DNA of 64,000 nucleotides from Nigrospora sphaerica (Eukaryota; Ascomycota; Sordariomycetes; Amphisphaeriales; Apiosporaceae). Below are positions 1-36,706 of this stretch, piece after piece. The notes under the pieces were generated by a model. That model was not told the DNA's origin. It ran no database searches and saw only the letters and a program-made list of their open reading frames with translations. Location of the stretch: positions 124,001 through 188,000 of the forward strand of contig JAGVVL010000013.1 in assembly GCA_018287875.1 (NCBI GenBank), in the 5' to 3' direction. The position numbers were made by a program, and so were the translations under genes. Every line of letters begins with the position of its first letter. Within the stretch, counting starts at the first letter, position 1.

Positions 1-3000
1 CCTTCGGTCGTAGCCCTTTTGTTGGGCTTTCACTGCGACGTCCCAGTGTTCTCTCATACGCGCGCGGACCTCTCGGCTCTTCTGTAGCCGTTCTAACACG
101 CCCGCGCTCCGAAAGCGTTCTGCTTGGGGGCGAACTCCGTCATCCTCGGGTGAAATCCATACAGCGCCTCAAACGGTGACACCCCGATGGAGTCGTGGCG
201 GCGGTTATTATAGGCGAACTCGGCTTCGTGTAGCCCGGATGCCCATGTCGCCTCGTCGCAACACGTGCGTAACCACTTCTCTAGTGTTTGGTGCGTTCTC
301 TCTGTCTGCCCGTCCGTTTGGGGATGGTACGCCGTGCTCAGCCGGCGTTTCGTTGCCCTTGCCTCGCACCACTCTTGCCAGAACCGGCTCGTGAGTAGGG
401 AGTCCCTATCGCTCACAATCCCGAGGGGCGTCCCGTACCGGCATTCCACTTCCTTATACAGGATATGGGCTAACTCTGCCGCAGTTAGGGTTTTCCTCGT
501 GGGTAGGAACAGTGCCATCTTCGTGAATCGGTCCACGATGACTAACACGGCGTCGCAGGCGTCGCCCTCGGGTCGGCAGCTGATCGGCAGCCCAGTGATG
601 AAGTCCATGCTAATCTCTTGCCAGGGTCCCTCGGGTAGCGGTAGGGATTGGAGTAGGCCGTACGGTTTGTGCCTTGGTCTCCTTGCTCCCTGGCACTCCT
701 GGCATGACTCTGCGTACTGTCGCACCTCCTCGGCGATCGCGGGCCAGTGGAACTTCCTCGTGAGCAGCTCTAAGGTCTTATTCGCGCCTAGGTGTCCCGC
801 CCTGGGGTCATCGTGGTGTTGGTGGAGTAGTTGGGCCCTTAACGCTCCCTCATTAGGGATGACTAGCCTTCCTTTAAATCGGAGGGCTCCTTCCTCGTCT
901 AGGTGGTACCCCGCAGCTTGGCCTTGCCGCGCCTTCTCCATTCGTTCCGCGATGTCCCGGTCCTGGGGTTGTAGCCCCCGAATGAGCTGGTAGAACGCCT
1001 CAGTGGGCTTATCCGCCCAAGTGGTCTCGTTTCTTGCCACGCTTCGAGCCACTGCTCTCGGGAGCACCTGTCCCCCCACCGGCCTCGTCGATCACTGCTC
1101 GGCGCCTCGTCGTGGGTGGCCCTCCTGGCCTTGTGCCCGGGTTACCGGGGCAAGGACCGCGTCCCCCTGGCCACCCGCCGACCTTTTGTCTGTGTGCGTC
1201 ACCATCGCCCGCACCGCCCCCACGTACGTCGCGGTCCCGACGTTTCTCGTGGTGCTGATCCTTGCCACCTGGTGTCGGACCTCGGCCGGCAGCTGGTCGA
1301 CGAGTGCCAGTTTCATTGCTAGTGACGGAATCACGTCGTGGTAGCTGATCTCCCCAGCCATGTAGTCTGGTCGCCGCGATAGCGGATCCGCCGGGTTCGT
1401 GGCCCCCTTCCGATATTCCATATCGAAGTCAAAATGCGAGAGCCTGTACACCCATCTTGCGAGGCGGCCTCGTAAGTCTCTCGCCGGTGCTTCCACGACC
1501 CCTTTCAGTGCCTGGTGGTCGGTCCAGACCGTGAACTTGGCGCTCAGCCCCTCAAGGTAGTGTCTCCAATGCTCGAGTGATTCGACAATCGCTAGCAGTT
1601 CCTTTTGGCCCGTGGCCCAGTTCAGCTCGGGCGCCGTGAGTTTCCGCGACCAGTAGGCGACTGGCCTCCACTCGCCACCTCCTTGTTTCTGTGATAGGAT
1701 GCCTGAGACTGCCCTATCACTCGCGTCTGTCTCGACCCTGCTAGTTTTCTCCGGGTCCCAGTGTCGGAGCACCGTCGCCGAAGTGAACGCGTGCTTTAGC
1801 TCTTCGAACGCCTTCTGTGCGTCCAGGGGCCACTGGAACGGGCCCTTCTTCCGGCCGGCCTCCATGCCTTTCAGTAGCGCCGTAATCGGTGCCGTGATAT
1901 GCGAGTACTTCGCAATGAACTTCCTATAGAAGTTGGTGAACCCTAGGAACACTTGGATGTCCCGGTACGACTCAGGAGGCTGCCATTCCTGCACGGCTAT
2001 CACTCGTTTCGGGTCCATCTTTAAGCCTACTCGGCCGACCACGAATCCTAGGAACTCGATTTCCTCTTTAAAGAATTCGCACTTCGAGATCTTCGCAAAT
2101 AGCTCGTGCTCCTTCAGCCGTTCGCACACCATTCGGAGATGCGTCGCGTGTTCCTTCGCGTCCTGCGAGTAGATGACGATGTCGTCGAGGTAAACCACGC
2201 AAATGGTGTCAATGAGCCCTGCTAATGCCTTCTGCATATAGGCCTGAAACGTGGCGGGCGCGTTCGTGAGCCCCATGGCCATCACGTTATACTCGAAGTG
2301 GCCGTACTTCGTTCGGAACGCGGTCTTCCAGCGGTCGCCCTCTGCGATTGCGAGGCGAAAATAGGCGTCTCGTAAATCCATCTTCGAGAACACCTTCGCC
2401 GACCCCAGCTGATCCATCAGCTCGCTAATTAGCGGAAGCGGATATCGGTTCTTTACCGTGACCTTATTTAGGCCCCGGTAATCGACGCATAGTCGTAGAC
2501 TGCCGTCCTTTTTGGCACGAATAGCACGGGTGCCCCCGCCGGGCTCGTGGAGTGCCTAATGCGACCGGTTTCCAACGCCTTCGCGAGGTACTCCTCGAGC
2601 TCCTTTCGTTGCGGTTCTGAGAGGGGATAGATAGGTCCGTGTGGAGGCTGTGCGCCGGGGATGAGGTCGATCGTGTGCGGTGTCTCTCCTAAAATAGGCG
2701 GCTCCGCGGCTGCGGACTCACTAAACACGACCTCGTACTCCTTTAAACAGGCTGGTAGCGCGACGGTCCCTATGGGCGGTTCGTCGTCAAGCCCCGGTAT
2801 CGCCGACGCGTCACCTAACTCTAGCCTCGCTAGCTGGGCGATTAGCACCGGTTCGCCTTCGGTCGCTTCGCGGGCGAACTCCTCTGGCCCCACGAACTGC
2901 ATCACTCTAAACGTGAACGTGTCTGGCTTTCGTGTGTCTAAGGTAATTCCCTCCCGCCCCATGCCCGGGCGGGACAGTAGCACCTGGGCCGCGTGCTTAT

Positions 3001-3364
3001 CTCGGCGCACGACGAAGAACACCTGCGTGAACCTCCGTACCTGCCCTTGCACGTCTTGCATCTCTATCGCCGCTTCCACGGCGCCATAGCACCGTAGCGG
3101 CTGCCCGTCGACCCCTAAAAGTCGCGGCAGAGTTATGGGGACTTTCGTAACCCAACCCCTCGTGACGGCTCGATCCGCCGTCCGCTTTGCGATCACGTTG
3201 ACCTCGGCCCCCGAATCCAGGTCGATCCGAATCGGCTTCTTCGCTCGGCCGAGTTCGTCGCATAACTGGCCCGTGGTGCGCATGGCCGCGCCTAGCACCC
3301 CTGTCGCGCGGTGTGTGTCCGCTGAGTCGTCTTGCGCTCCGTCCGGCTCAGCTACACATTTCCC
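1..3364 (-). pseudogene. pol of copy A (protease, RT, RNase H, integrase)
   Basis: Read right to left. Protease with DSGAEVNVI near 3205; RT with the catalytic YLDD near 2190; RNase H with TDASDRAVSGILS near 1720; integrase with an HHCC zinc module (HQHHDD...CQEC, about 830-690) and the DD35E core with DFITGLP and HPQTDGQTE, ending at the window edge. Pol is entered from gag by a -1 shift at 3358-3364. The frame breaks near 2468-2417, 1092-1079 and 93. The break between 2468 and 2417 lies at a T5 run that is T6 in copy B, so it may be a read error. The break near 93 is present in both copies. Confidence 0.85.
3352..3364 (-). promoter_or_regulatory. -1 ribosomal frameshift site, gag/pol, copy A
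   Basis: Minus strand reads G GGA AAT in the gag frame (3364-3358), two codons before the gag TAG. Slipping back one base gives GGG AAA TGT, which is the pol frame. Five bases downstream begins GCTGAG, which can pair with CTCAGC about 20 bases further on. This is the classical X XXY YYZ plus stem layout. Confidence 0.72.
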
Positions 3365-4696
3365 GCCTCGCTCGCGCTCCAGTCGGAGTCGGATCGGTAC
3401 TGGGGCGTCTCTTGCTTCACCTCTGCCGCCTGGATCCGCGCGCCGGCCGCTCGTGTAGCGCCGGTGTGCGCCGCCGGGATTGCCTGCCCGGCGGCTTGGC
3501 CGTACAATCCCGCTGGATATGGCCCCCTCGCCGCATTTATAGCAACGGACGTACTTCGGGCGGGGTCTCCTCTCGGTGGCGCCTGGGCCGAACCCCCTCG
3601 ACGAACCTTCGACGCTGGTTGCACCACCGCCTGGTTCACATACCCCTGTCGGGTCCCGCTAAACTCGTGCTCGGCCCGGGGTCGCTTCCTTCCTCCCGGA
3701 GTCCCGTCGCGTGTCCCTTCGCGATCCCTTCGCTGATAAGGAGAGGATCTGCCATCGACGCTCCGCCTCGTGGGCGACCGCTTGGGCGTCGGTGATAGCA
3801 ACGTTATCCCGAATGATGTCCATCCGTAGCCACGGTCGCAGCTTGAGTAGGAACTCGTGTGCGATGAGGGGCTGGCCTGCGATGCTCTCTCGAACCCGTC
3901 GCTGCCACGCGGACCACTCGTTATAGAACTGTGTCGGCGATTGGTCGGCCGTTTGCCGGATCCGTTGTAGCGCCGCCATTGACCTCTGCATATTCTGAGC
4001 CGGGTCGATGTGTTCCCGTCGAATGAACTTTAAGAAGTCTGCCCACTTGGCCTGCTCGCTGTATTTCCCTTGCGGGTATAGATCTTCGGCGTGGGTGCGC
4101 CACTCGCTTTGCAAGGCGTAGTCCACGTTGGTGAGGGCCCATTCGATATAGCGAGCATCCGTCTGGTCGGGTCGGCTCTCGTTTTGTTGTTCCACCGCCA
4201 CGATCCAGCTTCGGATCTCCACGTGGGTCGAGGCCTCCTCTAGCTTCTTGCATGCGTAAGTCGGTGGCTTCTCGTACGTGCGCGGTTCTCCGCTCGTGCT
4301 CCGACTGGGCGGCGTTAGTCCTTGACCCCGTTGGCGGTCGGCTCGGTCCGCCGTCATCATCTCGATCATCTTCTGCTGTGTCTTCAGCAGCGCGCGGAGA
4401 AGGTCGTTCTCCCGCGTGGCGACCCGGAACAGATCGGACTCCGAGGGGTTGACATGTCGGGTCCCGGCGTTGGGCTTGGATCCGTTTCGCCGGATGGTCG
4501 CGGTTCGTCCGCGCCCGTGGGCCCTTCGTCCATTGGGAACGGGCGCCCCTCCACCGTGCCCGCTCCGGTAGTCAGGGCGCCGGGGATCGCCGCGTTGCTC
4601 GGCGCGGCTGGCTCGTTGGCTCCTAACCCTAAGTTGGGGTGAGCTTGCTTGACCGGGCGTCGAGCTGTCGGGGCGCGATCGGGTAGCGGGTGCCAT
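3352..4696 (-). CDS. gag of copy A
   Basis: Starts at ATG 4696, 37 bases after the LTR. The first about 310 residues are open: a proline/serine-rich N-terminus, then a charged helical capsid-like region (DPAQNMQRSM, WQRRVRESIAG) typical of Ty3/gypsy Gag. A frame slip near 3740 (GGAG against GGGGAG in copy B) follows WQIL. The nucleic-acid-binding zinc knuckle, CYKCGEGGHIQRDC near 3540-3500, is encoded in another frame from the stretches on both sides in this copy. Gag ends at TAG 3352-3354, right after the slippery heptamer used to reach pol. Confidence 0.8.
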
Positions 4697-4732
4697 AGCC
4701 GGCTCGTTCTCGTGGTGTAGAGATTGAAGAAT

Positions 4733-4965
4733 TGTAACGGAATGATACGAATCGAACGAGGTGACTATGTGCACGCAATTCCAATGACTGGCTGGCTGTA
4801 TTGACTTCAATCTGGCCGTCCCTCCGTTTGCGGGCGCGGCCAGATTCTGCATAAGGGCGCCCCGGATTAACGTGGCGCCGCTCCGCCGTTTCGGCGACCG
4901 CCCTGGCGCTTGCTTCCCGCCGGCGCGCCGACGCACCGCCGATCCGCCCGCCCGGCCCCTTTACA
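4733..4965 (-). repeat. LTR of copy A, probably also 3' LTR of copy B (233 bp)
   Basis: Same as 13903-14134 apart from one extra C near 4917. On its outer side the minus strand has a G7 run just before TGTAA, as expected of the polypurine primer that precedes a 3' LTR. In copy B the same LTR edge is followed by unrelated sequence. This pattern fits a head-to-tail pair sharing one LTR. Confidence 0.7.
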
Positions 4966-4980
4966 ATGCCCCCCCAATTC
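4966..4980 (-). promoter_or_regulatory. Polypurine tract next to the 3' LTR
   Basis: Minus-strand GAATTGGGGGGGCAT lies directly before the TGTAA of the LTR. Retroviral-type elements prime plus-strand DNA from a purine run at this place. It is short (seven G) and three bases away from the LTR edge, so the call is moderate, but it is the main sign that 4966-8650 is internal to the element. Confidence 0.5.
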
Positions 4981-5437
4981 CTGGGCCCGGTCTCCGGCGC
5001 CCGTGGAATTCCTATCGGTGGAGCGGTCTCGGGTGCGCCGCGCCGCGTGGGTCCTTGGCCCGCCACCTTGTGGTCGCCGCCCTTCGTGGGGTTGTCCTAT
5101 GCGCTCGTTATGTCTGCTGGCCCGCCCGTCGGCGGCCGGTCGTTGCCTGGGCGGCGCTGCCCCGCGCTGCGTGTTTGTCTCCAGTCGCGCTCTCTGTCGC
5201 GGCGGCCTCGCCGCCTCGCCGCCTCGCTGCCTCGCTGCCCGTGTTGCTGCCTGGGGCGCCGAGGGCTCGGCTTTGTTTGTAGCTCCGTACTCCATACCAA
5301 CTCCTGGGTCGGCGCCTGGTTGCAGCTTTCCTTTGTTCCCGTTCCTTGTGGCAGGCGACCTCTCCATTCCCCGTACGTCTCGTGTTTCGTGACGCTCTCT
5401 GTTCCTCATCCATTCGTTCTTCGACTGTTCGCCGACA
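4976..5437 (+). promoter_or_regulatory. Upstream region of the antisense gene
   Basis: GC-rich stretch between the LTR edge and the ATG at 5438. The last about 90 bases are pyrimidine-rich (ctctctgttcctcatccattc), as in many fungal 5' leaders, and the start context is GCCGACAATG. No TATA box is seen. It would have to hold the promoter if the antisense gene is transcribed from inside the element. Confidence 0.35.
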
Positions 5438-8400
5438 ATGCTGTACCCGATCTACTCGCGCGAGGACGCGCTTAACCGCATTCGCGAGTGGGAGGTCCTC
5501 CCCGCCTGTCACTCTGTCTTTCGTTTTGGACACTCCGGCGGCCCTTTGTCCCGGAACGCCGACGACGATCTTGTCGTTTCCTTGTGCGTCCCGCATCCTG
5601 GTCGGCGCTCTATCGGGCCTCGCTCGGCTGCCTCGGGCGTTGCTAACCCTCCCCTCTAGCCCCAATGCCTTTTGTTGCAACAGTGTCACGACCGGCGCTG
5701 TTGATCCCTCTCTGAACTGTGAGGGTGCCGGCAAGTGCGGGATCTGCGCCATTGATCATCGCAAATGTGTCGCCGTTTGTGTTGCCCTTTGCCCGCGACT
5801 GTGTTGCGATGGCTGACGCGTTTAGATTCCCGAGGAATTGGTCGGTGCCGGCCGCGTCCTCACCGCTGGCATCGCCCATCTTCGCGTCCTTCAATACCGC
5901 GGTACCCACATGGGCCAGGTGGGCAGTTCCAATTGGAACTGGCGATACGTCCAAGCCTATGGGTCGCTCAAGACGGTCTACCACGAGGCGGCGATGGCTT
6001 TCCGCCTATGCTGCAATGAGGAGGACATTGCCGTCTTCCAGGAGCGCAAGGAACAGAAAAAGCGCGAAGCCGCCAACTCCCTCGCCGTTGTTGAGGCGCA
6101 GAGCCAGCGCCGGTTCGTCCAATTACAAACGGACATCCTCGCCGTGAGTTTCCCCTCCTTTCGCCGCCGCGTCGGCGTACTGGTTCTAATCGTGTTCCGG
6201 TAGGGCGCCCATGGCCAACGGGAGCCTGTCAGTGCTGAGGAGTACCAGCGGCGATACACCCTCGCCCTTCCTGTCGGCGATCGCAGTGCCGATAGCCTGT
6301 CCCGCCTTATCGCGCACTGCGAGGAACTTTATCGCCTAACCGTCGACAACTACGACGACAAGCTGTACCGCTGGGCGCCTGGATACCATTTTCTCGCGGG
6401 CGAGGCCACATCGGATATCGATTGGCAGCGTCGGTTCAAACGATCGCAGAAAAAAGGTGCTGCGAGGGTTGATTCGTGGTTTGGTGTCAACCACGCCCGG
6501 CGGGAGAAACATGGTAAGAGCCGCGTTGCTCGAGCAGGTCCCGCCGCCCCTGGTCGCCGTACCCCGGTGAGTCCTCCCCGTCTTCGTTTTGACGCGACCG
6601 GTCCTTAGTTAACACTTCCGGTAGGGTAGCAAGGCGTCTGTCCGCCGATCCCATTCCGACGCACGAGTCGACTCCGCCGGGCCTTCGTCGCCCTTCACGC
6701 CAGTCCCCGCCGCGATGCCTGGCGATGAATCGCCTTCCGACGACGAGGACTCTGACGACGACGCCTCGAGCCTGGGTGCGGACACTGACGACGATGGCGA
6801 GTACGTCCAGTCGCCGTCCGGTCGCAGCTCTCCTTCCGGCTCCAGTGCCCGTCCTGGCCCCTCCGGCCGGGGTGGCTCGGGCGCGCCTGCGCTAGAGGAT
6901 CGCGACCTGCTGTCCTCTGCTGCGTCCCTGTCGGACGCGCCGATGTCCTCTGCGCCGGCCTCTCGGGTCCAGCGCTCCACTCGTGCTGCGACACCCTGGC
7001 CCTCCAGCCCTGCCTCCGGCGTCCGCTCTGCTAGCGGTGCTCCCTCCGCTAGCGGCGCCTCCTCGATGGTGGAGTGGCGGGCCGAGCGGCGGATCCATCT
7101 CACGATGATCTCCAATACCTGTCCTCTGCCTGAGAAGCCTTGGTCCGCGGAGGAGTATCGCGACTGCGTCGCCGCGCGCTTGGAACTGTGGCATAAGTTC
7201 GACCAGGTCCCCACGACCGTCGCCGAGCCACCTCATTCGTCCGCTCGTGACCAGAAACTCATTGAGTTTCGCGATTTGGCCCCCCCGCCCTTCCGAGGTT
7301 GGAGGCCACCATAATCCTGTCGCAATGTACGACGTTTACCATACTGCCCGACGCGGTTTCGAGACCTGGCTTCGACGTCTACACCCCTTGCCTTCGTCCG
7401 GCGGCTCGCTGCCGTCCCTCTCGTCGCCGGCGAACGGCCAGCGTACTTACAGCGCCTCTCCGGGCTATGGCAAGGCGAGTACGACCCGTTCGCTTCGCCT
7501 AAGCGGGTAAACTTCAGCATGCCCGGCGACGGCGGTCGCGACGTTTCCTCGCTGGACAGTAGCCGCTCTGGTTCCGATGTCGTGGACGGTCTGGACTCGT
7601 GCGGCCCTTCCTCTCCCTTGAGCGCGGTCGCCGACCCAGATGCGTCCGACGGCGGCAACGCCCTGTCCGTTGGCTCCGACACCGGCGGTGACCGCTCCCC
7701 TAGCCCTGATGGCGATGTTGACATGGTCTCGGGGGCACTGACGCGTCGGCGCAAATGCCGCCACCCGCGCAAGCTCTTGCCCCGACCGGCCCGTCCGTGG
7801 ACCCACACTGGACTGCCGAGCAATGGGCGCTCGCCCGCCGACGGGCCATGAACCGCATCCTCGAGCTGTATCCTGACCCCGCTCCCCCTGTCAGCGTTAC
7901 CGCCTTCCGGGACGTCCTTTGGGCCCGGCACTTCAGTCTCCACTCGGCGAACCGCGAGATAGACACGGCTATGCGCTGGGATTCCCATCCCGCGCCGCCT
8001 AGTGTTCAGCACACGCGAGACACTGAGAACCTCGACGTGGCCACCATCACGCTCTCGGCGACGGCTGACGTCCTTGGTTGTGCTCCCGAGCTGGCCATCT
8101 CTCTCTGGCTCGGCTTGCCCAGGCCGGCGGACGATCGCATGTCCTGCGCCGCTTCCCGATCGACGCTACCCGCCCCGATCCCATTGGAGCTGGGTACACA
8201 CCCCGGTACGTCTCCGAGATCGTGACTAGCCTTCCGGCGGCGGCTCCTCCCCCTGCCGTTTAAGGACTGGTCCCCGGCCGCAATGGAGGAGTACTACAAC
8301 AGCGCCTTCTCGTCACTCGGCTTGCGACGGATCAACGTCCTCGGTGGCATCGCTCCGCCCGCCGTCTCGCCGTCCTCGTCGACCCGAGGTGCCAAACGTC

Positions 8401-8483
8401 GCCGCTCTGCCGCCGACGACGCGGCTCACGGTCCCTCGGCTGGACCCCCTCCTTCGCGACGCCTTCGCCCGTCTCGCCGCTAG
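5438..8483 (+). CDS. Antisense spliced gene inside the gypsy element; Cys-rich, acidic protein of unknown function
   Basis: Five exons: 5438-5583, 5660-5774, 5826-6143, 6204-6566, 6625-8483. The introns (76, 51, 60, 58 bp) start GTGCGT, GTTTGT, GTGAGT, GTGAGT and end TAG, each with a branch site (GCTAACC, GCTGACG, TCTAATC, GTTAACA); they keep frame. The predicted protein is about 933 residues. Residues about 50-85 hold a Cys-rich, possibly zinc-binding motif (FCC...NC...KCGIC...KC) followed by IPEEL; next come a charged helix (FQERKEQKKREA), two acidic Ser/Asp-rich disordered stretches (about 320 and 560), and a basic GAKRRRS near the end. I recall similar Cys motifs in orphan Pezizomycotina proteins but cannot name a family. 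The last exon changes frame at five short runs (near 7280, 7385, 7731, 8118, 8250), net one missing base. It ends 180 bp from the end of pol, tail to tail. Confidence 0.68.
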
Positions 8484-8662
8484 GTCGCCCTGACGCGTCA
8501 CCTAGTTTGCCGTCCCCTCATCCGCTGCGTCCTGCGCTTTGGCGGATCCTCGTCGCCCGTACGCCGCCTAGCGGACCTCCTGCGTCCTACTCTGCATGCC
8601 GCGTGCGACCTTCCACAGCAATTGCATGGCTTAGCTCCGTGTACTTCTAGGCCCTGGCCTCG

Positions 8663-11600
8663 TTAATTGATCTGCTGCGCTTCGCGCCCCGCCACTCCGT
8701 GATTTCCTGTGCTCGGAGGGCGATCGTCGTCCCATTTACGGTGGGACCGCCGCTTACGATAGCGTGCCACGATCTTCGGCGCGTTCTCCAGGTTCGCCTC
8801 TGGCTCCCAGGTGTTATATTCCACCGGCCAGCCCATCCATTTCACGAGGTACTCCGCCCCTCGGGCGGTCGTCCTGTGTCGGAGGATATCCTCGACCTCC
8901 CACTCCTCTTGGTCCTCCACCAGTCCTGGGAGTGCCTCATGGTCCCCGGAGGCCTTGCCAGTCCATGGCTCCAACGATGACACTGGGAACACGTCGTGTA
9001 TCCGTTCGTACTGCGAGGGCAGGGCGACCCTGTAGGCCACCTTACCAATCCTCTCCGTGACCTTTACCCGAATGTACGTCGGGGCGAGCTTCGCACCGCA
9101 CTTAAATCGGAACCGCTTCGTCGAGAGGCCTACCCACTGACCTGGTTGGAACTCTTGGTCCTGGTGCCTTCGGTCGTAGCCCTTTTGTTGGGCTTTCACT
9201 GCGACGTCCCAGTGTTCTCTCATACGCGCGCGGACCTCTCGGCTCTTCTGTAGCCGTTCTAACACGCCCGCGCTCCGAAAGCGTTCTGCTTGGGGGCGAA
9301 CTCCGTCATCCTCGGGTGAAATCCATACAGCGCCTCAAACGGTGACACCCCGATGGAGTCGTGGCGGCGGTTATTATAGGCGAACTCGGCTTCGTGTAGC
9401 CCGGATGCCCATGTCGCCTCGTCGCAACACGTGCGTAACCACTTCTCTAGTGTTTGGTGCGTTCTCTCTGTCTGCCCGTCCGTTTGGGGATGGTACGCCG
9501 TGCTCAGCCGGCGTTTCGTTGCCCTTGCCTCGCACCACTCTTGCCAGAACCGGCTCGTGAGTAGGAGTCCCTATCGCTCACAATCCCGAGGGGCGTCCCG
9601 TACCGGCATTCCACTTCCTTATACAGGATATGGGCTAACTCTGCCGCAGTTAGGGTTTTCCTCGTGGGTAGGAACAGTGCCATCTTCGTGAATCGGTCCA
9701 CGATGACTAACACGGCGTCGCAGGCGTCGCCCTCGGGTCGGCAGCTGATCGGCAGCCCAGTGATGAAGTCCATGCTAATCTCTTGCCAGGGTCCCTCGGG
9801 TAGCGGTAGGGATTGGAGTAGGCCGTACGGTTTGTGCCTTGGTCTCCTTGCTCCCTGGCACTCCTGGCATGACTCTGCGTACTGTCGCACCTCCTCGGCG
9901 ATCGCGGGCCAGTGGAACTTCCTCATGAGCAGCTCTAAGGTCTTATTCGCGCCTAGGTGTCCCGCCCTGGGGTCATCGTGGTGTTGGTGGAGTAGTTGGG
10001 CCCTTAACGCTCCCTCATTAGGGATGACTAGCCTTCCTTTAAATCGGAGGGCTCCTTCCTCGTCTAGGTGGTACCCCGCAGCTTGGCCTTGCCGCGCCTT
10101 CTCCATTCGTTCCGCGATGTCCCGGTCCTGGGGTTGTAGCCCCCGAATGAGCTGGTAGAACGCCTCAGTGGGCTTATCCGCCCAAGTGGTCTCGTTTCTT
10201 GCCACGCTTCGAGCCACTGCTCTCGGGAGCACCTGTCCCCCCACCGGCCTCGTCGATCACTGCTCGGCGCCTCGTCGTGGGTGGCCCTCCTGGCCTTGTG
10301 CCCGGGTTACCGGGGCAAGGACCGCGTCCCCCCTGGCCACCCGCCGACCTTTTGTCTGTGTGCGTCACCATCGCCCGCACCGCCCCCACGTACGTCGCGG
10401 TCCCGACGTTTCTCGTGGTGCTGATCCTTGCCACCTGGTGTCGGACCTCGGCCGGCAGCTGGTCGACGAGTGCCAGTTTCATTGCTAGTGACGGAATCAC
10501 GTCGTGGTAGCTGATCTCCCCAGCCATGTAGTCTGGTCGCCGCGATAGCGGATCCGCCGGGTTCGTGGCCCCTTCCGATATTCCATATCGAAGTCAAAAT
10601 GCGAGAGCCTGTACACCCATCTTGCGAGGCGGCCTCGTAAGTCTCTCGCCGGTGCTTCCACGACCCCTTTCAGTGCCTGGTGGTCGGTCCAGACCGTGAA
10701 CTTGGCGCTCAGCCCCTCAAGGTAGTGTCTCCAATGCTCGAGTGATTCGACAATCGCTAGCAGTTCCTTTTGGCCCGTGGCCCAGTTCAGCTCGGGCGCC
10801 GTGAGTTTCCGCGACCAGTAGGCGACTGGCCTCCACTCGCCACCTCCTTGTTTCTGTGATAGGATGCCTGAGACTGCCCTATCACTCGCGTCTGTCTCGA
10901 CCCTGCTAGTTTTCTCCGGGTCCCAGTGTCGGAGCACCGTCGCCGAAGTGAACGCGTGCTTTAGCTCTTCGAACGCCTTCTGTGCGTCCAGGGCCACTGG
11001 AACGGGCCCTTCTTCCGGCCGGCCTCCATGCCTTTCAGTAGCGCCGTAATCGGTGCCGTGATATGCGAGTACTTCGCAATGAACTTCCTATAGAAGTTGG
11101 TGAACCCTAGGAACACTTGGATGTCCCGGTACGACTCAGGAGGCTGCCATTCCTGCACGGCTATCACTCGTTTCGGGTCCATCTTTAAGCCTACTCGGCC
11201 GACCACGAATCCTAGGAACTCGATTTCCTCTTTAAAGAATTCGCACTTCGAGATCTTCGCAAATAGCTCGTGCTCCTTCAGCCGTTCGCACACCATTCGG
11301 AGATGCGTCGCGTGTTCCTTCGCGTCCTGCGAGTAGATGACGATGTCGTCGAGGTAAACCACGCAAATGGTGTCAATGAGCCCTGCTAATGCCTTCTGCA
11401 TATAGGCCTGAAACGTGGCGGGCGCGTTCGTGAGCCCCATGGCCATCACGTTATACTCGAAGTGGCCGTACTTCGTTCGGAACGCGGTCTTCCAGCGGTC
11501 GCCCTCTGCGATTGCGAGGCGAAAATAGGCGTCTCGTAAATCCATCTTCGAGAACACCTTCGCCGACCCCAGCTGATCCATCAGCTCGCTAATTAGCGGA

Positions 11601-12529
11601 AGCGGATATCGGTTCTTTACCGTGACCTTATTTAGGCCCCGGTAATCGACGCATAGTCGTAGACTGCCGTCCTTTTTTGGCACGAATAGCACGGGTGCCC
11701 CCGCCGGGCTCGTGGAGTGCCTAATGCGACCGGTTTCCAACGCCTTCGCGAGGTACTCCTCGAGCTCCTTTCGTTGCGGTTCTGAGAGGGGATAGATAGG
11801 TCCGTGTGGAGGCTGTGCGCCGGGGATGAGGTCGATCGTGTGCGGTGTCTCTCCTAAAATAGGCGGCTCCGCGGCTGCGGACTCACTAAACACGACCTCG
11901 TACTCCTTTAAACAGGCTGGTAGCGCGACGGTCCCTATGGGCGGTTCGTCGTCAAGCCCCGGTATCGCCGACGCGTCACCTAACTCTAGCCTCGCTAGCT
12001 GGGCGATTAGCACCGGTTCGCCTTCGGTCGCTTCGCGGGCGAACTCCTCTGGCCCCACGAACTGCATCACTCTAAACGTGAACGTGTCTGGCTTTCGTGT
12101 GTCTAAGGTAATTCCCTCCCGCCCCATGCCCGGGCGGGACAGTAGCACCTGGGCCGCGTGCTTATCTCGGCGCACGACGAAGAACACCTGCGTGAACCTC
12201 CGTACCTGCCCTTGCACGTCTTGCATCTCTATCGCCGCTTCCACGGCGCCATAGCACCGTAGCGGCTGCCCGTCGACCCCTAAAAGTCGCGGCAGAGTTA
12301 TGGGGACTTTCGTAACCCAACCCCTCGTGACGGCTCGATCCGCCGTCCGCTTTGCGATCACGTTGACCTCGGCCCCCGAATCCAGGTCGATCCGAATCGG
12401 CTTCTTCGCTCGGCCGAGTTCGTCGCATAACTGGCCCGTGGTGCGCATGGCCGCGCCTAGCACCCCTGTCGCGCGGTGTGTGTCCGCTGAGTCGTCTTGC
12501 GCTCCGTCCGGCTCAGCTACACATTTCCC
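8663..12529 (-). pseudogene. pol of copy B, with C-terminal chromodomain
   Basis: Same order as copy A: protease (DSGAEVNVI), RT (YLDD), RNase H, integrase (HHCC, then DD35E), and here the complete integrase C-terminus and chromodomain (EEWEVEDIL...LVKWMGWP...NTWEP, about 8850-8720), ending at TAA 8663. Chromodomains of this type bind histone marks and steer integration. In this assembly protease and RT are in one open frame (10961 upward), better than in copy A, while the break near 10990 (GGG against GGGG in A) and others near 10575, 10330 and 9570 are one-base run differences. The break between integrase core and C-terminus near 9266 is shared by both copies. Confidence 0.85.
12480..12529 (-). 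promoter_or_regulatory. -1 ribosomal frameshift site and stem, copy B
   Basis: Identical to copy A. Heptamer GGGAAAT at 12529-12523; gag stop at 12519-12517; stem GCTGAG/CTCAGC with 5-base spacer and about 20-base loop, possibly extended by GTGT/ACAC across an internal loop. It joins the gag end frame to the protease frame exactly. Confidence 0.72.
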
Positions 12530-13866
12530 GCCTCGCTCGCGCTCCAGTCGGAGTCGGATCGGTACTGGGGCGTCTCTTGCTTCACCTCTGCCGCCTGGAT
12601 CCGCGCGCCGGCCGCTCGTGTAGCGCCGGTGTGCGCCGCCGGGGATTGCCTGCCCGGCGGCTTGGCCGTACAATCCCGCTGGATATGGCCCCCTCGCCGC
12701 ATTTATAGCAACGGACGTACTTCGGGCGGGGTCTCCTCTCGGTGGCGCCTGGGCCGAACCCCCTCGACGAACCTTCGACGCTGGTTGCACCACCGCCTGG
12801 TTCACATACCCCTGTCGGGTCCCGCTAAACTCGTGCTCGGCCCGGGGTCGCTTCCTTCCTCCCGGAGTCCCGTCGCGTGTCCCTTCGCGATCCCTTCGCT
12901 GATAAGGGGAGAGGATCTGCCATCGACGCTCCGCCTCGTGGGCGACCGCTTGGGCGTCGGTGATAGCAACGTTATCCCGAATGATGTCCATCCGTAGCCA
13001 CGGTCGCAGCTTGAGTAGGAACTCGTGTGCGATGAGGGGCTGGCCTGCGATGCTCTCTCGAACCCGTCGCTGCCACGCGGACCACTCGTTATAGAACTGT
13101 GTCGGCGATTGGTCGGCCGTTTGCCGGATCCGTTGTAGCGCCGCCATTGACCTCTGCATATTCTGAGCCGGGTCGATGTGTTCCCGTCGAATGAACTTTA
13201 AGAAGTCTGCCCACTTGGCCTGCTCGCTGTATTTCCCTTGCGGGTATAGATCTTCGGCGTGGGTGCGCCACTCGCTTTGCAAGGCGTAGTCCACGTTGGT
13301 GAGGGCCCATTCGATATAGCGAGCATCCGTCTGGTCGGGTCGGCTCTCGTTTTGTTGTTCCACCGCCACGATCCAGCTTCGGATCTCCACGTGGGTCGAG
13401 GCCTCCTCTAGCTTCTTGCATGCGTAAGTCGGTGGCTTCTCGTACGTGCGCGGTTCTCCGCTCGTGCTCCGACTGGGCGGCGTTAGTCCTTGACCCCGTT
13501 GGCGGTCGGCTCGGTCCGCCGTCATCATCTCGATCATCTTCTGCTGTGTCTTCAGCAGCGCGCGGAGAAGGTCGTTCTCCCGCGTGGCGACCCGGAACAG
13601 ATCGGACTCCGAGGGGTTGACATGTCGGGTCCCGGCGTTGGGCTTGGATCCGTTTCGCCGGATGGTCGCGGTTCGTCCGCGCCCGTGGGCCCTTCGTCCA
13701 TTGGGAACGGGCGCCCCTCCACCGTGCCCGCTCCGGTAGTCAGGGCGCCGGGGATCGCCGCGTTGCTCGGCGCGGCTGGCTCGTTGGCTCCTAACCCTAA
13801 GTTGGGGTGAGAGCTTGCTTGACCGGGCGTCGAGCTGTCGGGGCGCGATCGGGTAGCGGGTGCCAT
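12517..13866 (-). CDS. gag of copy B
   Basis: ATG at 13866; same protein as in copy A. One slip near 13810 (GAGAG against GAG) breaks the N-terminal 20 residues from the rest. The zinc knuckle CYKCGEGGHIQRDC is in the same frame as the end of gag here (EAGNV then TAG at 12517-12519), while the capsid part is in the pol frame, so at least one base is wrong or mutated between them, near the CCGCCC run around 12728. The GGGAAAT heptamer is at 12523-12529. Confidence 0.78.
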
Positions 13867-13902: not shown

Positions 13903-14134
13903 TGTAACGGAATGATACGAATCGAACGAGGTGACTATGTGCACGCAATTCCAATGACTGGCTGGCTGTATTGACTTCAATCTGGCCGTCCCTCCGTTTG
14001 CGGGCGCGGCCAGATTCTGCATAAGGGCGCCCCGGATTAACGTGGCGCCGCTCCGCCGTTTCGGCGACCGCCCTGGCGCTTGCTTCCGCCGGCGCGCCGA
14101 CGCACCGCCGATCCGCCCGCCCGGCCCCTTTACA
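13903..14134 (-). repeat. 5' LTR of copy B (232 bp)
   Basis: On the minus strand it starts TGTAAAGG and ends CCGTTACA, giving the 5-bp inverted ends TGTAA/TTACA. The outer end is fixed by divergence from copy A at 14134/14135. The inner end is chosen by the TTACA; a TGTAG at 13886 would give a 249-bp LTR instead. The gag ATG is at 13866, only 37 bases inside. No TGG-type tRNA primer site follows. Confidence 0.7.
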
Positions 14135-23291: not shown

Positions 23292-24566
23292 TCAACCGCT
23301 CCACACAAAGTTCTGCTCTTGTCCCTCGGCGAGCGGCCGCAGGGCCATGCCGTAGTCGCCGCCGTTGGGCGTCCGCAGCAGCGTGTGGATGTGGAAGCGG
23401 GCGGGCTCGGCGTTGGTGAGGAAGACGCCCGAGTGGTGGTCGAACTCGACGATGACAACGGGGCTCTGCACGCGGTAGTAGAAGGCGTCGGCGTCGCCGA
23501 AACCGCCGATCCAGCAAAAGTACGTCTCGCCGAAGTGGGCGCGCGCCTGGGCGAGCCGGAGTGCGCGCGCCCGCGCCGGCAGGTAGAGCAGAAACTGGGC
23601 GAGGAGGTCGCCGACGAGGGTCTGCTGCCGCGCGTCCATGTCGCCGACGCGCACGCCCTCGTACGGGACGACACGGTTGTCGCGGTAGGCGCCGCAGAGA
23701 TGCCGCTGGTCGTCGTGGTTCCAGCGGCCCGGCGGCATGGCCGGGTCGCGCAGCTGCTCGTAGACGCGGGCATGCGCCTGCAGCGGCGCCGGCAGGGACT
23801 GCATCAGCTCGAGCCCCAGCCGCTCTTCGTCGTGTAGGATGCGCGTGCCGTAATACGGGTCGGCCGGGTCGTCGATGTGGCTGGGCTCGGCGCCTGTGAA
23901 CCAAGGCGACAGCACCATCTGGTTGCGGACCAACAGCACGTTGAGGCACAGGTGGTGGCCGTACCAGGAAAAGCCCCACGGGCGCTCGGTCGACGGCGTG
24001 CCAAACAGGGCCACGTTGTAGGACAGGTCGTTGCAGATGCGTGGCGCGCCGACAAGCCGGCCGAGGAAGCCGTTGATGCGCATGGCGGCGAGGGCCTTGG
24101 CGTAGCCCTCGGGCGAGAGCGTGCGCCGCAGCAGCTCGAGGGCGGCGTCGCGCACCTCTTCGGCCACCTCGTCGAGCCGGATGCCCTTGTCGCTCAGCAG
24201 GAACTCGGGGTTGGACCAGGACCGCCACTCGGGCGAGTCGATGTGGTGGCTGATGCGCTCCCGCTGCCGCGCGTCCAGCCGCGCCAGCAGCGCGTCGGCG
24301 GCCGCCGCGATGTCGCGCACCGGCACGCCCTCGTCCTCGAGCCGGAACAGGCTGGGCCGCACGACGCCGTCGCTCGTGATGCCGCGGAAGGGCTCGGCGA
24401 ACAGCCGCCGCCAGTGCTCCCACAGCGCGTGCAGCCACGGCGGTTGTTTGCTGTCTCGGAAGGCCGCCGCGTACTCGTGCGCGTCTTGCTGCTGCATCGC
24501 TGCGAAGCGCGCCTGGCCCAGGTCGGGCAGGAACCGGCGGAATCCGGCCTGCTCGTTTTCAGTCAT
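23292..24566 (-). CDS. DUF3500 family protein
   Basis: Single exon, 424 residues, from ATG 24566 (MTENEQAGF) to TAG 23292; an upstream in-frame ATG at 24749 would add a 61-residue stretch unlike the family. The segment near the C-terminus, FGETYFCWIGGFGDADAFYY followed by EFDHHSGVFLTN and RFHIHTLLRTPNGGDYG, is the hallmark I associate with Pfam DUF3500. No biochemical role is known to me. It has strong third-position GC bias and is undamaged, unlike its neighbours. No signal peptide or membrane segment is seen. Confidence 0.8.
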   Translation of the reverse strand: MTENEQAGFRRFLPDLGQARFAAMQQQDAHEYAAAFRDSKQPPWLHALWEHWRRLFAEPFRGITSDGVVRPSLFRLEDEGVPVRDIAAAADALLARLDARQRERISHHIDSPEWRSWSNPEFLLSDKGIRLDEVAEEVRDAALELLRRTLSPEGYAKALAAMRINGFLGRLVGAPRICNDLSYNVALFGTPSTERPWGFSWYGHHLCLNVLLVRNQMVLSPWFTGAEPSHIDDPADPYYGTRILHDEERLGLELMQSLPAPLQAHARVYEQLRDPAMPPGRWNHDDQRHLCGAYRDNRVVPYEGVRVGDMDARQQTLVGDLLAQFLLYLPARARALRLAQARAHFGETYFCWIGGFGDADAFYYRVQSPVVIVEFDHHSGVFLTNAEPARFHIHTLLRTPNGGDYGMALRPLAEGQEQNFVWSG

Positions 24567-25082
24567 GGTTGTGTGCGCTGTTTGCCTTTTGGGCAAGCTT
24601 GCAATGCGTGCATGCGTGCAAATGAGCAGTGCGTGTACAAGAGCGGGGCAGGGCAAGTGGAGGTTTGCGTGCGGTAGGGGTGCTACGATTTGATCTGCTC
24701 GTACCCACTGGTAAGACGGGCTGGCGCTTGGCCGACGTGCGGAATCCATCTACTTCGACTACCCATTTGCCGGGTCTTCCCGTCCTATGGTGGGCCCCGA
24801 GGCCATACATTGTCATCCCGAGTCTTCCCTCATCCCGGGTGTTTCGCCACCGGCCCGGCCACGCCAAGACGAGCCCGGCTTTCCCTCCCGCCCTTCTTGA
24901 TGCGCACGCAAACCCGCATGTGTCATTGATGTCGCGCGATGGGGGGCTCATGTTGAAAGATGGGGTGGGCCGCTTGGGAACCATATACTCGCTAACATAA
25001 TACTCATCTTGGGGACAGCCCGGCCACCCGGAGACGACCGCCCCTGCTAAACCCTTTCCGCCTCCGCCCGAGCACTCGCCAG

Positions 25083-30815: not shown

Positions 30816-31171
30816 TGTGAGAGGCTGAGCCTTGAAGCACTATCGAAGGGGCCAAATGCTGTTTATTTTCTAGATGAGAAGAGAGAAGAGAATCGTCCTC
30901 AGGAGGCCGGGCGCAGCGTCTCGTTAAATCTTGCGAGACCGGACCGGAACGTTCGGGTCGGAACGTTCGGACCGGAACGTTCGGACCGGAGCGTTCGGAC
31001 CGGAACGTTCGGATCGGAACGTTCGGATCGCTGCTCAGCTCCCCCTCCTAGGTCTTGACCACTAGCCTGGCGTTCGAATGGAGAGACCTACTCGAAGCCT
31101 CATGTGAGGGGTTCGTGAGACGCTCAGGCCAGGTGCGCCTGAGCCTATCTCCCAGGTCCCAACCTGTAACA
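30816..31171 (-). repeat. 3' LTR (356 bp) with six 14-bp repeats
   Basis: Inside it a 14-bp unit, ggaccggaacgttc with small variants, stands six times in tandem (about 30930-31028). Every unit has GGAACGTTC, nearly palindromic. The partner LTR at 36364 has five units, the solo LTR at 38492 four. Confidence 0.92.
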
Positions 31172-31200
31172 TCACCCCCTTCTCCCCCTTTTTCTTTCTA
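31172..31200 (-). promoter_or_regulatory. Polypurine tract of the 5.9-kb element
   Basis: The sense strand has about 27 purines, rich in AGAAAG and GGGGGAGAAGGGGG, ending GTGA right against the 3' LTR at 31171. Confidence 0.8.
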
Positions 31201-31300
31201 TAACCCTCTGTACGTCTCCTCCTGCACGTCTCTTCCCGTATGTATCCTCCCGTACGTCTCTTCCCGTATGTCTCCTCCTATACGTCTCCTCCTCCTGACC
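31201..31300 (-). repeat. Pyrimidine/purine minisatellite upstream of the polypurine tract
   Basis: Plus strand: about six imperfect copies of a 15-17 bp unit, gtacgtctcttcccgt and gtacgtctcctcct types. On the sense strand it is purine-rich, so it extends the purine region that precedes the 3' LTR. Confidence 0.6.
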
Positions 31301-31319
31301 CTTCAATTCCCTACTTGTG

Positions 31320-34300
31320 CTTCTTCTAGGCTTCGGCTAGCCTAGTTCTTCTTTGGCTAGCGGGCTTTTCGCCATCGAAATCCGTCGCTGGTCTGTATTT
31401 CGCTTCGAATTCGTTTAGCGCTTGAGTATCTTTCAAGTTCTCTAGAGGCTCCCAAGTTGGTTCTGCGTAGCCTCTCTATTTGACTAGGACCTGCCGGTAT
31501 GAGCCCCTTCCGCGTCTCTTCGTACGGGCTCTTGTAATACTCTCGACTTCCCACTCGTTGTTATCTGGGTTACTGTTATCCGTAAAAGCTGGCGGCGGTT
31601 GATAGTCTGTTGTCTTCTGGGAAGGTAAAGGGTCCTCGTACGCAGGTTTTATAAGGTCCACATGGAACCTTGGCCATACTCCTTGTGGGACGTCTAGTTC
31701 GTAAACGTGAGAGCTGATAACCTTTGTAACAGTGTATTTCGCGTGTAGCCAGGCTAGCTTTTTCGATGGGACGTCTAGGTTAAAGTTCTTAAGGGAAAGC
31801 CAAACCTTATCCCCTACTCGGTATTCGCGTGCGGCGGTCCTTTTTCGGTTCGCGAGGTCCTCCTGGGCTTATTGGGCGGCTATCATAGCGGCTTGGGCGA
31901 AATCTCCAGCGTCCTTTAGTCTCTGGACGAAGTGTTCGGCTCTTATGCGTGGATCCCTCGAGCTTTATGGCGATCTCTCGATGACTTGGATTGGTTCGAC
32001 GTGGTATCTGTGTAGGAGAAAGAACGGACTGACCCTAATAGCTCTCGAGTCTCTATTGTTAATCGCTAGCTGAGCTCCTGGGAGTAGCTTAGCCCAGTCG
32101 TGCTGGGTTAGAGCTGTATAGGAGCGTAAGTACGCGAGAACCTCTTGATTAGCTCGTTCAGTTGCTCCGTCAGTCTCAAGGTGGAAGGCGGTGCTTAGCC
32201 TCTGATCCATTGATGTTAGCTAGCAAAGTCGCGTCCAGAATCGGCCAGTCCAGTTAAAGCCCCTATCACTCGTGATGGCCCTTAGGAATCCGTGGAACCG
32301 CCAGAAGGCTCTCACAAAGGTCTCGGCGCAGGCTTCCGCTTCCATCGTTGTCATGGCCTCTAAGGTTACCTCTTTAGATAGCCTGTCGGTGATCACCATT
32401 AGGAAGCTCGGGTCGGTCTCGCACGTAGTTGGTAAATCCGTCATGAAGTCGATCGAGATCTCTGTGTGGAACCTATCCGGGACAGGTAGCGGCTTTAGAA
32501 GCCCTTACTTTGCGTCTCTCTAGACTCTCTTTTTGCCGCAGGTGTCGCAGTTCCTTAGGAACTGACGAACTGCTAGTGTAAGGCCAGGCCAAAAGAAGCT
32601 TCGGTTTAGGATGCTAATCGTTCCGTCCCTTCCTGGGTGTCCTGAAGCGTGCGAGTCGTGGGCGTTCTGGATTAAGGCCGTCCTGAGGGGCTCGTACGCC
32701 GGTATCCAGATTCTGTTGCGAAACCTGACTCTTCCTTCCGGGTCTAGCTTGCACTCCGATATCGATACGACGCCTTTTAGGCTAGGAGCAAAGGACTGCT
32801 GCTTCGTACGGAGGTCTGCCACCATAGTTCGGTAATCGGGATCCTTCTCGATGGCTTGGTTCCAGAGCGTCTGAAGGTCTTCATGGGCGAAGCACTCGTC
32901 TCCTGATGGGAATTGCTGGCCATCGATGTTTAGGACTCCAACACCGAGGTCCTCACTCTCCTCCTCCTCCGCTGGTTGCTTCTCGCGAGGATCTCCCTCG
33001 TCCTTAAGGAGCTGTTGGTAACGGCCTTTCGTTCTCTCGTCGTCGTACCCATCCGGTTTGTCTTGCTCTCTTCTAGACAGCGTATCGGGCCTGTCTGCTA
33101 GCCTCCCCGGTCGGTAATGGAGCTTATAAGAGTACCTCTCGAGCTTAACTACCCAGCGAGCTTGTCTCTCTGTGAGGTGTCTTGCCTTTCGGAAGTATTC
33201 GAGGTTCTTGTGGTCCGTTAGGATCTCGAAGGGCTCTCGTATGCTCCTTAGTATCCCGTCCCACGCGCTAAGGCAGTCTATCACCGCTAGGAGTTCTTTA
33301 TCGTGGATCTCGTAGTTGAACTCTGCTGGGGAGAGCTTCCGGGAGTGGTATGCTATTGGGTGTAGCAGACTGTCTTCGCTGTACTGTGATAAACAGCCTC
33401 CAAGGCTGTGTCCTGAGCAGTCTGTCTCGACTACTGTTCGTCGGTCTGCGTCCTACTGGGCTAGGACTGGAGCTTCGATAAACACTCTCTTAAGATGCTC
33501 GAAAGCGCCTTGTTGCTCCTGGTCCCACTGGAACGGGGTTCCCTTCTTCGTTAAGGCGGTTAGTGGCCGTGTGATCGCTGAATACTCGGGTATGAACGTT
33601 CGGTAGAAGTTTGCGAATCCTAAGAAGCTGCGTACTCCTTTAAACGTCTTAGGAGCCTCCCACTCCTGGATCGCGAGTACCTTTTGAGGGTCCATTCGAA
33701 CTCCTTTGCCTGCCTCGATAATGAACCCTAAGTACTTAGTCTCCTTCACCGCGAACTCGCATTTCCCTAAGTCGAGACCTAGGCTAGCGTCTCGTAAGCG
33801 GCTTAGGACCTTCTCGACTTCTTTCATATGGTCCTCCCTACTCCCTAAAGAGTAGATAAGGATGTCGTCTATATAAGCTGAACAGGAATGGTTTAGTAGG
33901 TCCTTTAAGGTGTAGTTAATATACCGTTGGAACGTGGCTGGTGCCCCAGCTAATCCGAATGGCGTCACGAGCCACTTGTATAGGCCGAACCTGGTCCTAA
34001 AGGCTGTCTTCTATTCCTCGCCCGCAGCAATTCGGATCTTATGAAACGCCGCTCGGATATCGAGCTTCGTGAGCCAGCGCGCTCCTGAGAGCGTCGTGAG
34101 TGTCTCTCGGATTAGCGGCAAAGGGTATCTGTCTCTCTTCGTAATCGCGTTGAGCGCTCTGAAATCGCAGCAAAAGCGTAGTCCGCCTCCCGGCTTTTTC
34201 ACGAACAGCACGGGAGCTCCTCCGGCGGAGCTGCTCGCTCGGATATAGTTCTTATCCAGTAGGTCCGTTAAAGTCTTCCGTAGCACTAGGAGCTCTTCGC

Positions 34301-35060
34301 GTGACATTCCATATAAGGGCCCCCAAGGCACCTCTAGTTCCTTGCTATCGGTTCCTTTTGTTAAGGGGATCGTGTGGTCTACCCCTAGCTGGTGTGGTGG
34401 TAAGCAGTTGTCGGCTGCTGGGTCGAATAGGTCCTTCCATTTCCGTAACTCCTTCGGGAGTTTCTCGTACGGCACTCGTTTATCCTTAGGTTCGAGCGCC
34501 TTTTCGATGTCCGCTAATGAGGCTGCGAACACCTGTATCTCGTGTGGGCCTTGCGAGCGTCTTGCTCGTCTTATAAGCGTTCCGATGGAGGCCGCTCCTA
34601 TCTCTTTAGGCGGCTTGATAGAAGAGCTCTTCGCAGCTTCTATATCTCGTATGCGAAACTCTCCTTGAGACCTCATAAGGAGTTCGCGCGCTGTAGCGTC
34701 GTACATTACCCGATGTTTCTCGAACCAGGGCTTCCCAAGTATAAGGGAATGGTTTAAGCCTGGTACCACGTATCCATAGATTCTCTGCGAGAACCCTTCG
34801 AGGTCGATCTCTAAGTAAGCGATCTCCGAGATACGAGGGTCTTGTTTCTGCGAGCTTTTCGTAAAGGTAGTTTCGCGTAATACTCGGGGTCGTGTTGGGA
34901 TCCTTGGTAGGTCTAGCTGTCGAGCTAGTTTTTCGCTGATCGCTGCGTAGCAGTCGCATCCGGTGTCGGCTAAGATAGGAATAATCTTTTTATTGTTCAC
35001 GAGGCCTTCAATAGTGAGTGCCGAACTATTCATAAGCTTCTCTATCTTCGGTAGCGACAG
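31320..35060 (-). pseudogene. pol of the 5.9-kb element
   Basis: Right to left: protease (ILADTGCDCYAAI, with DTG in the active-site place) at about 34970; RT start near 34200 (PVLFVKKPGGGLRF) and core near 33870 (AYIDDILIYS); RNase H near 33430-33200; integrase zinc module near 32600 and 32550 (RNCDTCGKKRV); integrase core 32450-32000 (ITDRLSKEVTLEA, ITSDRGFNW, HLETDGATERANQ); chromodomain near 31545-31420 (NEWEVESI, then WEPLENLKD). Stops at about 34010, 33450, 32520, 32220, 31965 and 31476 interrupt it; the one before RGYAEPTWEP replaces a conserved Trp, as RIP would do. Confidence 0.85.
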
Positions 35061-35101
35061 GGTGGCTGCTGTTGACCTTTGAGGACGACTTCCCCTAGAG
35101 G

Positions 35102-36295
35102 TTACTCTTTTTCCGAATCCGATGTCTCGACTCCGCTGCTCTCGCTAGCGTCTTGCTCGGCCTTTATGCTGTGCACTTGTGTGTTAGGGCGTTTCGCAGG
35201 CCTTAGCTTGCACGTTATTATTCTATGCCCTTGCTTCCCGCATCTTAAGCATGAGCCGTCGTCTCTTCGCTTTTGCATCTCTTCGGGGAGGCCCACGCGG
35301 CCTTCGTGTGAGACGACCTGCTCTGGCCTTGTCCCTTAGGCTTCTTCTTATCGAAGGGGTTCATCCCAGTCATGACCGTGTCTCCGGAGGCGTCTTTCGT
35401 GTGCGAGCTCTGCGCGGGGCTTATGCGTCCTGTAGGCGCTGGCGTAGGGTTCCCATAAGTAAGGGAGTAGGTGGTTTCCAGCCTCGAGGCTGTTAGCATG
35501 AGCTGGTTCACCATGTCTGTGTATCCTTCCGGCAGTGAGACGGGTATTAGAATCCTCTTAAGCTGTTCGTTTAGGCCTCCCTCGAGGAACGTCCTCTTAA
35601 CAGCGTCGGGCTAATCGATTCCACCAGCCTCCGCGAGGGCCTTCTCGAAGCTCACGTAGTACTCATGGAACGGCTGTTTCTTTCCTTGCTTCATCTCCCT
35701 AAGCCAGACAGTAGCGGCTTGCTGCTTGTTCCGGTCGAGGTATTTGTTCTCGAGGTACTCGAGGAACTCGTCTGGGTTCTTCGCGTAGCTAGGACCGCCC
35801 GAGAGGAAGAAGGCGCTCACGACTCTTTAAGGAGCTTCTCCTAAGTTCTGGTAGATAGAGTACTAGCGGTCCTCTTGGGATCCAATGATCTCGGCGTCCG
35901 CTTGCAGCTTATGTTCCATTGAAACCTTCCATGCTGGGAAGTATGTCTTGTCGCCTTCGAACTTTGCGGGCCAAGCGAGAGGTTTTCGTTTAGGCCTTAT
36001 GTCGGGCTCGCGAGCGACTACGATCGAGGGCCCGCTACTTGGGGTGTTCTCGGTCTGGATCGAGCTGCCCGAGGCGGGCGCTATTGTAGGGCCAGTCGTC
36101 TCTTGTGTCGTGCCTTGGCTTTCGGTAATCTGTTGTTGGAGGCTCGCGATAGTCTGCTGAGACGCCTGTCGGTCGTGCTGAAGGTTTATAATGTCTTGCT
36201 GCATCTGGAAGACAAGAGCGGCCCATTCTTCTGAGGATTGGGGGTCTTGGCGCTTGGCCGGCCATCGTTTCGTCGGTTTGAGATTCCATTGAAAT
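35102..36295 (-). pseudogene. gag of the 5.9-kb element
   Basis: Likely start MESQTDETMAG at about 36290. A helical region with a Gln-rich coil (QQQITESQ) and a Pro/Ser spacer follows, then the capsid-like part with KFEGDKTYFPAW, YFEKAL-type repeats and FLEYLENKYLDRN, and a zinc knuckle CLRCGKQGHRIITC near 35240. Stops near 35863 and 35611 replace expected Trp residues. It ends SEKE at 35102; pol begins in a different frame just after. Confidence 0.75.
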
Positions 36296-36351
36296 AGCCT
36301 TCTGAGACGTCCGCACGTCTCTCGGAAGGTATAGAAAAGAAAAGAAAAGTG

Positions 36352-36363
36352 ATCTAGAAAATA
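36352..36363 (-). promoter_or_regulatory. Self-priming primer-binding site
   Basis: Directly inside the 5' LTR the sense strand reads TATTTTCTAGAT. Its exact reverse complement, ATCTAGAAAATA, lies in the LTR at 36412-36423. In Tf1/sushi-type elements the 5' end of the transcript folds back on such a site and primes reverse transcription. This would place the transcript start near 36423. No tRNA-like TGG site is present. Confidence 0.7.
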
Positions 36364-36706
36364 TGTGAGAGGCTGAGCCTTGAAGCACTATCGAAGGGGC
36401 CAAATGCTGTTTATTTTCTAGATGAGAAAGAGAGAAGAGAAACGTCCTCAGGAGGCCGGGCGCAGCGTCTCGTTAAATCTTGCGAGACCGGACCGGAACG
36501 TTCGGGTCGGAACGTTCGGACCGGAACGTTCGGACCGGAACGTTCGGATCGGAACGTTCGGATCGCTGCTCAGCTCCCCCTCCTAGGTCTTGACCACTAG
36601 CCTGGCGTTCGAATGGAGAGACCTACTCGAAGCCTCATGTGAGGGGTTCGTGAGACGCTCAGGCCAGGTGCGCCTGAGCCTATCTCCCAGGTCCCAACCT
36701 GTAACA
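36364..36706 (-). repeat. 5' LTR (343 bp) with five 14-bp repeats
   Basis: Same as 30816-31171 except for one repeat unit fewer and one extra A near 36430. The length difference (13) is exactly one unit minus one base, so the LTRs are otherwise close to identical and the insertion is fairly recent. Confidence 0.92.

Follow-up and report, generated by a model that had tools for sequence, protein, structure and literature searches.

A predicted four-intron antisense gene between pol and the 3′ long terminal repeat of a chromovirus in the fungus Nigrospora sphaerica

Background

In Botrytis cinerea and Sclerotinia sclerotiorum, Boty-like elements reportedly carry an antisense gene, brtn, said to have been described by Zhao et al. 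in 2011. In PMC4227169 these elements are described as having a chromodomain in gag-pol in addition to brtn, and PMC7264820 places antisense open reading frames (ORFs) between pol and the 3′ long terminal repeat (LTR) for certain elements of plants as well as for Boty in B. cinerea and Sclerotinia. Among plants, antisense ORFs are reported in all Retand clusters studied (PMC11963269), and the antisense product of Grande is presented as nuclear and as having its own promoter (PMC11963269 and PMC7264820). In human T-cell leukemia virus type 1 (HTLV-1), the antisense gene HBZ is transcribed from the 3′ LTR and spliced, and it regulates the provirus (PMC10186651). Here we analyze a stretch of 64,000 nucleotides of the ascomycete Nigrospora sphaerica (assembly GCA_018287875.1, contig JAGVVL010000013.1, positions 124,001 to 188,000 of the forward strand; hereafter the window), in which a copy of a Ty3/gypsy chromovirus, element A, carries a predicted gene with four introns on the strand opposite to its gag-pol, between pol and the 3′ LTR. 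The gene and its splicing are predicted from the genomic sequence, and on balance we favor the reading that the chromovirus carries a spliced accessory antisense gene whose protein was once selected and which is a possible regulator of the element.

Element A resembles the Boty-like elements as these are described: both belong to Ty3/gypsy, live in fungi, have a gag-pol that includes a chromodomain, and bear an extra gene in antisense orientation after pol and before the 3′ LTR. With the plant antisense ORFs of the aORF-3R type (Retand, Grande and RIRE2) it shares the location of the antisense ORF, but these elements have plant hosts, and Retand is placed in a lineage other than the chromoviruses, most of its clusters having a TRP28 domain; neither PMC11963269 nor PMC7264820 uses the word "intron" in its main text. 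HBZ and APH of the HTLV-type retroviruses are antisense too, and their splicing and 3′ LTR promoter would have counterparts in element A, whose four putative intron sites are present in 20 of 20 copies. They differ in belonging to retroviruses and in being described, in the available part of the source, in spliced and unspliced forms and not as a four-intron gene, and the likeness meant here is one of arrangement. Other chromoviruses have the same set and order of domains, to which element A adds 3.7 kb.

The initial annotation of this DNA had stated that antisense ORFs of some plant gypsy elements were already known, and this is correct (PMC7264820 and PMC11963269). Its claim of novelty has to be narrowed, since a fungal element with a chromodomain has already been described as carrying an antisense gene (brtn of Boty); its more specific statement, that no fungal chromovirus was known with a spliced one, is not contradicted. 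No four-intron antisense gene in a fungal chromovirus was found in the open-licence literature, which is weak evidence. As far as that literature shows, the kind of arrangement is already known (Boty, Retand, Grande, HBZ), and what is new is the combination of four introns with measured selection. When a gene lies in sense orientation within a retrotransposon, its introns are apt to be lost at each cycle. If a backward-facing gene with several introns survives, it would show a way for a eukaryotic gene to be carried intact by elements of this sort, and measurable selection makes the role of the antisense accessory ORFs of Ty3/gypsy elements testable in a fungus.

Structure of the element and its antisense gene

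Element A lies on the minus strand and is flanked by LTRs of the form TGTAAC...TTTACA, the 5′ LTR at 13903..14134 (232 bp) and the 3′ LTR at 4733..4965 (233 bp). Its gag-pol region occupies 8663..13866 on the same strand (the 5′ limit is approximate and set by eye), the frame being broken in the window. Above their Pfam cutoffs, gag-pol matches RVT_1, RT_RNaseH, Integrase_H2C2, SH3_Tf2-1 and Chromo, with rve present at a score under its cutoff, and the order of domains is reverse transcriptase (RT), RNase H, integrase and chromodomain, the last at the end of pol. With this domain set and order, two LTRs and, in 13 of the 19 insertion units of its family, matching 5-bp target duplications, element A is a Ty3/gypsy chromovirus, which bears out its original assignment to Ty3/gypsy.

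Between pol and the 3′ LTR lies an extra segment (4966..8662), on whose plus strand the antisense gene is laid out. It begins with an LTR-proximal leader (4966..5437), which opens with bases complementary to the G-rich tract beside the LTR and is a candidate site for an antisense promoter. There follow, on the same strand, exon 1 (5438..5583), intron 1 (5584..5659, 76 bp, phase 2), exon 2 with a Cys-rich motif (5660..5774), intron 2 (5775..5825, 51 bp, phase 0, with an in-frame stop), exon 3 with a charged region (5826..6143), intron 3 (6144..6203, 60 bp, phase 0, also with an in-frame stop), exon 4 (6204..6566), intron 4 (6567..6624, 58 bp, phase 0) and a long last exon with an acidic low-complexity part and a basic C-terminus (6625..8483), which is interrupted in the window. 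All four predicted introns have GT-AG ends, kept in 20 of 20 near-full-length copies scored across the genome, and the exons join in frame across each of them; by eye, the introns contain the branch-like motifs CTAAC, CTGAC, CTAAT and TTAAC. The end of exon 4 is reached without a stop in 16 of the 20 copies, and in 8 all exon lengths and the frame are kept and the frame is open to 7275. The four frame-preserving antisense introns of the initial annotation, given there without coordinates and assumed to be these, accordingly hold. Its 3-kb gene stands as regards the four introns and the in-frame exons and does not stand as a clean frame, the last exon being broken.

Copies in the genome and age of the association

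The genome (51.6 Mb in 33 contigs) yielded 20 near-full-length and three partial matches to the segment 4966-8662, and at least 20 near-full-length matches, besides partial ones, to gag-pol; in the latter search 40 of 57 candidates were scored, and the copy count is a lower bound. In all 20 near-full-length copies scored, segment and gag-pol abut with zero bases between them, and the far end of the segment directly adjoins the LTR (again 20 of 20). None of the 20 lacks the segment; full-length copies with the LTR directly after pol would, by the initial annotation, have refuted its reading. If the tandem is counted as one, there are 19 insertion units, and since the 5-bp target duplications match in 13 of these (in 6 they do not), the segment travels with the element. 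Two of the six unmatched units, L010/L043 and L011/L044 on C5, lie in opposite orientation and bear each other's 5-bp flanks, which is consistent with an inversion via recombination between copies. A third, L012/L040 on the 101-kb contig C6, is a single element with both flanks identical to those of the tandem pair L011/L044 on C5, which suggests that this contig is an alternative version of the C5 locus with one element in place of two.

An alignment of 19 young copies contains 32 variable columns, comprising 24 length differences and 8 substitutions. A further copy, L027, has 93% identity, and 207 of its 231 changes are C>T or G>A; relative to the number of sites available, C>T peaks at CpA (52/147, with 57/454 at CpG). 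Three relics, L050, L055 and L058, bear mutations resembling repeat-induced point mutation (RIP) as in L027, only heavier. Such mutation, along with the shortness of the introns, would suit a filamentous ascomycete. Their alignments, starting from the LTR, reach window positions 5882 (L050), 7679 (L055) and 5369 (L058, LTR and leader only), and none extends into pol; the changes in L055 that are not of RIP type fall on codon positions 1/2/3 in the numbers 55/40/73, most of them at position 3. To judge by these alignments, the element family has recently amplified, and the junction between LTR and segment is older than the recent burst, since all three relics retain it.

Selection on the antisense protein

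Nonsynonymous (dN) and synonymous (dS) divergence was estimated against a diverged relative, L049, whose alignable stretch includes introns 3 and 4, exon 4 and some of exon 3. The comparison used 152 codons in the end part of exon 3 and in exon 4, excluding window positions 6023-6044 (where L049 aligns poorly) along with the final codon of every exon; the young copies, with only 8 substitution columns, and L027, with almost wholly RIP-type changes, were not used. The 68 exon changes are distributed over codon positions 1/2/3 as 12/9/47, and in the coding frame dN is 0.063 and dS 0.628, a ratio of 0.10, as against 2.27 and 2.06 in the other two plus-strand frames. This low ratio, together with the concentration of changes at position 3, is the strongest evidence in the present analysis that the antisense gene encoded a protein. 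Over the part of exon 3 and exon 4 that could be compared, the antisense product was thus once under purifying selection as a protein. The initial annotation had proposed a comparison of synonymous and nonsynonymous change among the copies; the one made here is against L049.

The setting of L049 and of other diverged relatives bears on a different account, in which an intron-bearing host gene was captured in antisense orientation and is a mere passenger without function for the element. The L049 stretch (L049:4092-5225, 1.13 kb) is bounded by 60-nt inverted repeats that are 98% complementary and holds part of a gene that is a sister to the antisense gene, introns 3 and 4 being retained; in all likelihood it is a DNA transposon that has picked up a piece of the sister gene, and it resembles those of the Pack type. 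Another relative, on C18 (L053:4648-5434), has about 30-35% identity to the antisense gene; by eye, intron 3 is apparently at the same point and the sequence is GC-rich, and it seems to be without the Cys-rich exon. No match to pol was found within the 9.9 kb examined beside the C18 fragment and a further fragment on C7. All three fragments therefore lie outside any recognizable element, as a captured host gene would lead one to expect. Conversely, the segment is present in every near-full-length copy scored, its junction with the LTR is found in three older relics, and the searches of this genome turned up no intact stand-alone donor, the later part of the C18 match carrying stops and the C7 match spanning about 60 aa. 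We therefore regard a passenger host gene as unlikely, though it is the strongest competitor to an accessory gene of the element. Among the weaker pol matches listed, none has a match to the antisense gene beside it, the element's own copies and relics aside, and with the C-terminal piece as the query only the element's own copies were matched.

State of the last exon

In the window the last exon falls into several frames, broken from about 7280 to 8483, and most of the breaks sit at runs of C, G or A whose length varies among near-identical copies. In 4 of 20 copies, a single frame of 408-409 aa extends from 6625 as far as about 7850. Additional introns between these positions were considered and ruled out, since no extra intron is needed where this frame is continuous. 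It might be supposed that the gene, once selected, is at present a decaying pseudogene broken in the current copies: frame breaks are found in the last exon of every assembled copy, one A run in exon 4 differs in length from that of the window in 11 of 20 copies, and 12 of 20 copies are not open to 7275. Against this, the 24 length differences among the 32 variable columns of the 19 young copies lie nearly all in homopolymers and are spread differently among the copies, as is expected of assembly error, and gag-pol is likewise split into several frames in the window and measures between 5034 and 5040 bases in the young copies. On the grounds of this homopolymer pattern most of the last-exon breaks are taken, without proof, to be assembly errors, and present decay of the gene seems to us quite improbable.

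A proposed role for the antisense gene

Under the favored reading of an accessory gene, antisense transcription would start at a promoter within the 3′ LTR or immediately internal to it and run in the direction of pol, and the four short introns, as predicted from their sites and the frame, would be removed. Provided that the last exon is open, the product would be about 900 aa long; its N-terminal part would be Cys-rich and its middle charged, followed by an acidic stretch of low complexity and a tail of basic character. That introns on the antisense strand escape splicing of the sense RNA is an established principle, and we infer that it operates here: reverse transcription uses the sense genomic RNA, which holds only the complement of the introns and is left unspliced there, and the introns would therefore be kept. 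We favor an element-encoded regulator, and tentatively entertain the possibility, with the odds somewhat against it, that the protein acts in the nucleus by tuning the transcription, silencing or integration of the element. More doubtful still is that an HBZ-like arrangement evolved independently in a fungal chromovirus, with a protein-coding, multi-intron antisense gene under a 3′ LTR promoter, the spliced product of which would control the element and allow its amplification in a repeat-mutating genome. That the antisense transcript and not the protein is functional, pairing with the sense RNA and feeding or blocking RNA silencing, a role raised for plant antisense ORFs in PMC7264820, would suit the convergence of the gene and gag-pol, whose ends are about 180 bp apart, and a sense genomic RNA that would span the whole gene, but is very unlikely given that the dN/dS of 0.10 and the frame-preserving introns indicate selection on a protein.

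Searches for relatives gave little on which to base a function. The spliced protein had no relatives at E<=1 in the protein database, a weak negative as a control with the gag-pol ORF retrieved one fish protein only at E<=1e-5 and the database apparently holds few fungal elements. A plasmid search with a 73-aa ORF gave no match and is uninformative.

Several observations weigh against an accessory gene with a regulatory protein. No significant Pfam match was obtained for pieces of the antisense protein, and thus TRP28 was not found; the search of PDB sequences gave one match at E 0.066, which indicates no function; and the AlphaFold model of exon 4 alone is poor (mean pLDDT 46.9). A continuous frame from 6625 to the end of the gene is present in none of the 20 assembled copies. 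With regard to selection, one minus-strand frame that shares the same third positions looks constrained too (0.076 vs 0.355); no minus-strand ORF of at least 100 aa lies over the stretch used for dN/dS. Differences from L049 are fewer in introns 3 and 4 (18 of 117 sites) than at synonymous sites (47 of about 110), a small sample. Further, L049 now has in-frame stops, so that the selection is past, and as its 9 kb contain no pol match and it does not lie in a retroelement, part of that selection may have acted outside the element. Lastly, at L058:3279-3895 (the same place as L051:5279-5895) a piece of exon 3 has an RT fragment after it in the same orientation, unlike the intact element, in which the two are on opposite strands; a nested insertion is a possible cause.

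Other features of the window

Element A is one of two elements in tandem, which have the LTR at 4733-4965 in common; it serves also the element on its left, of which part of gag-pol is seen on the minus strand (1..4732), running past the left edge of the window. Another Ty3/gypsy family is represented at 30816-36706 (about 5.9 kb, with LTRs at 30816-31171 and 36364-36706); its last pol-like frame stops about 300 bp short of the LTR, leaving no room for an extra segment. AT-richer stretches at 37001-40000, 42001-45000 and 62001-64000 (GC 0.37-0.43) alternate with GC-rich ones, which fits what might be expected of a genome with RIP. Additionally, an ORF of 485 aa at 23292-24749 has a strong match to DUF3500 (E 1.2e-117).
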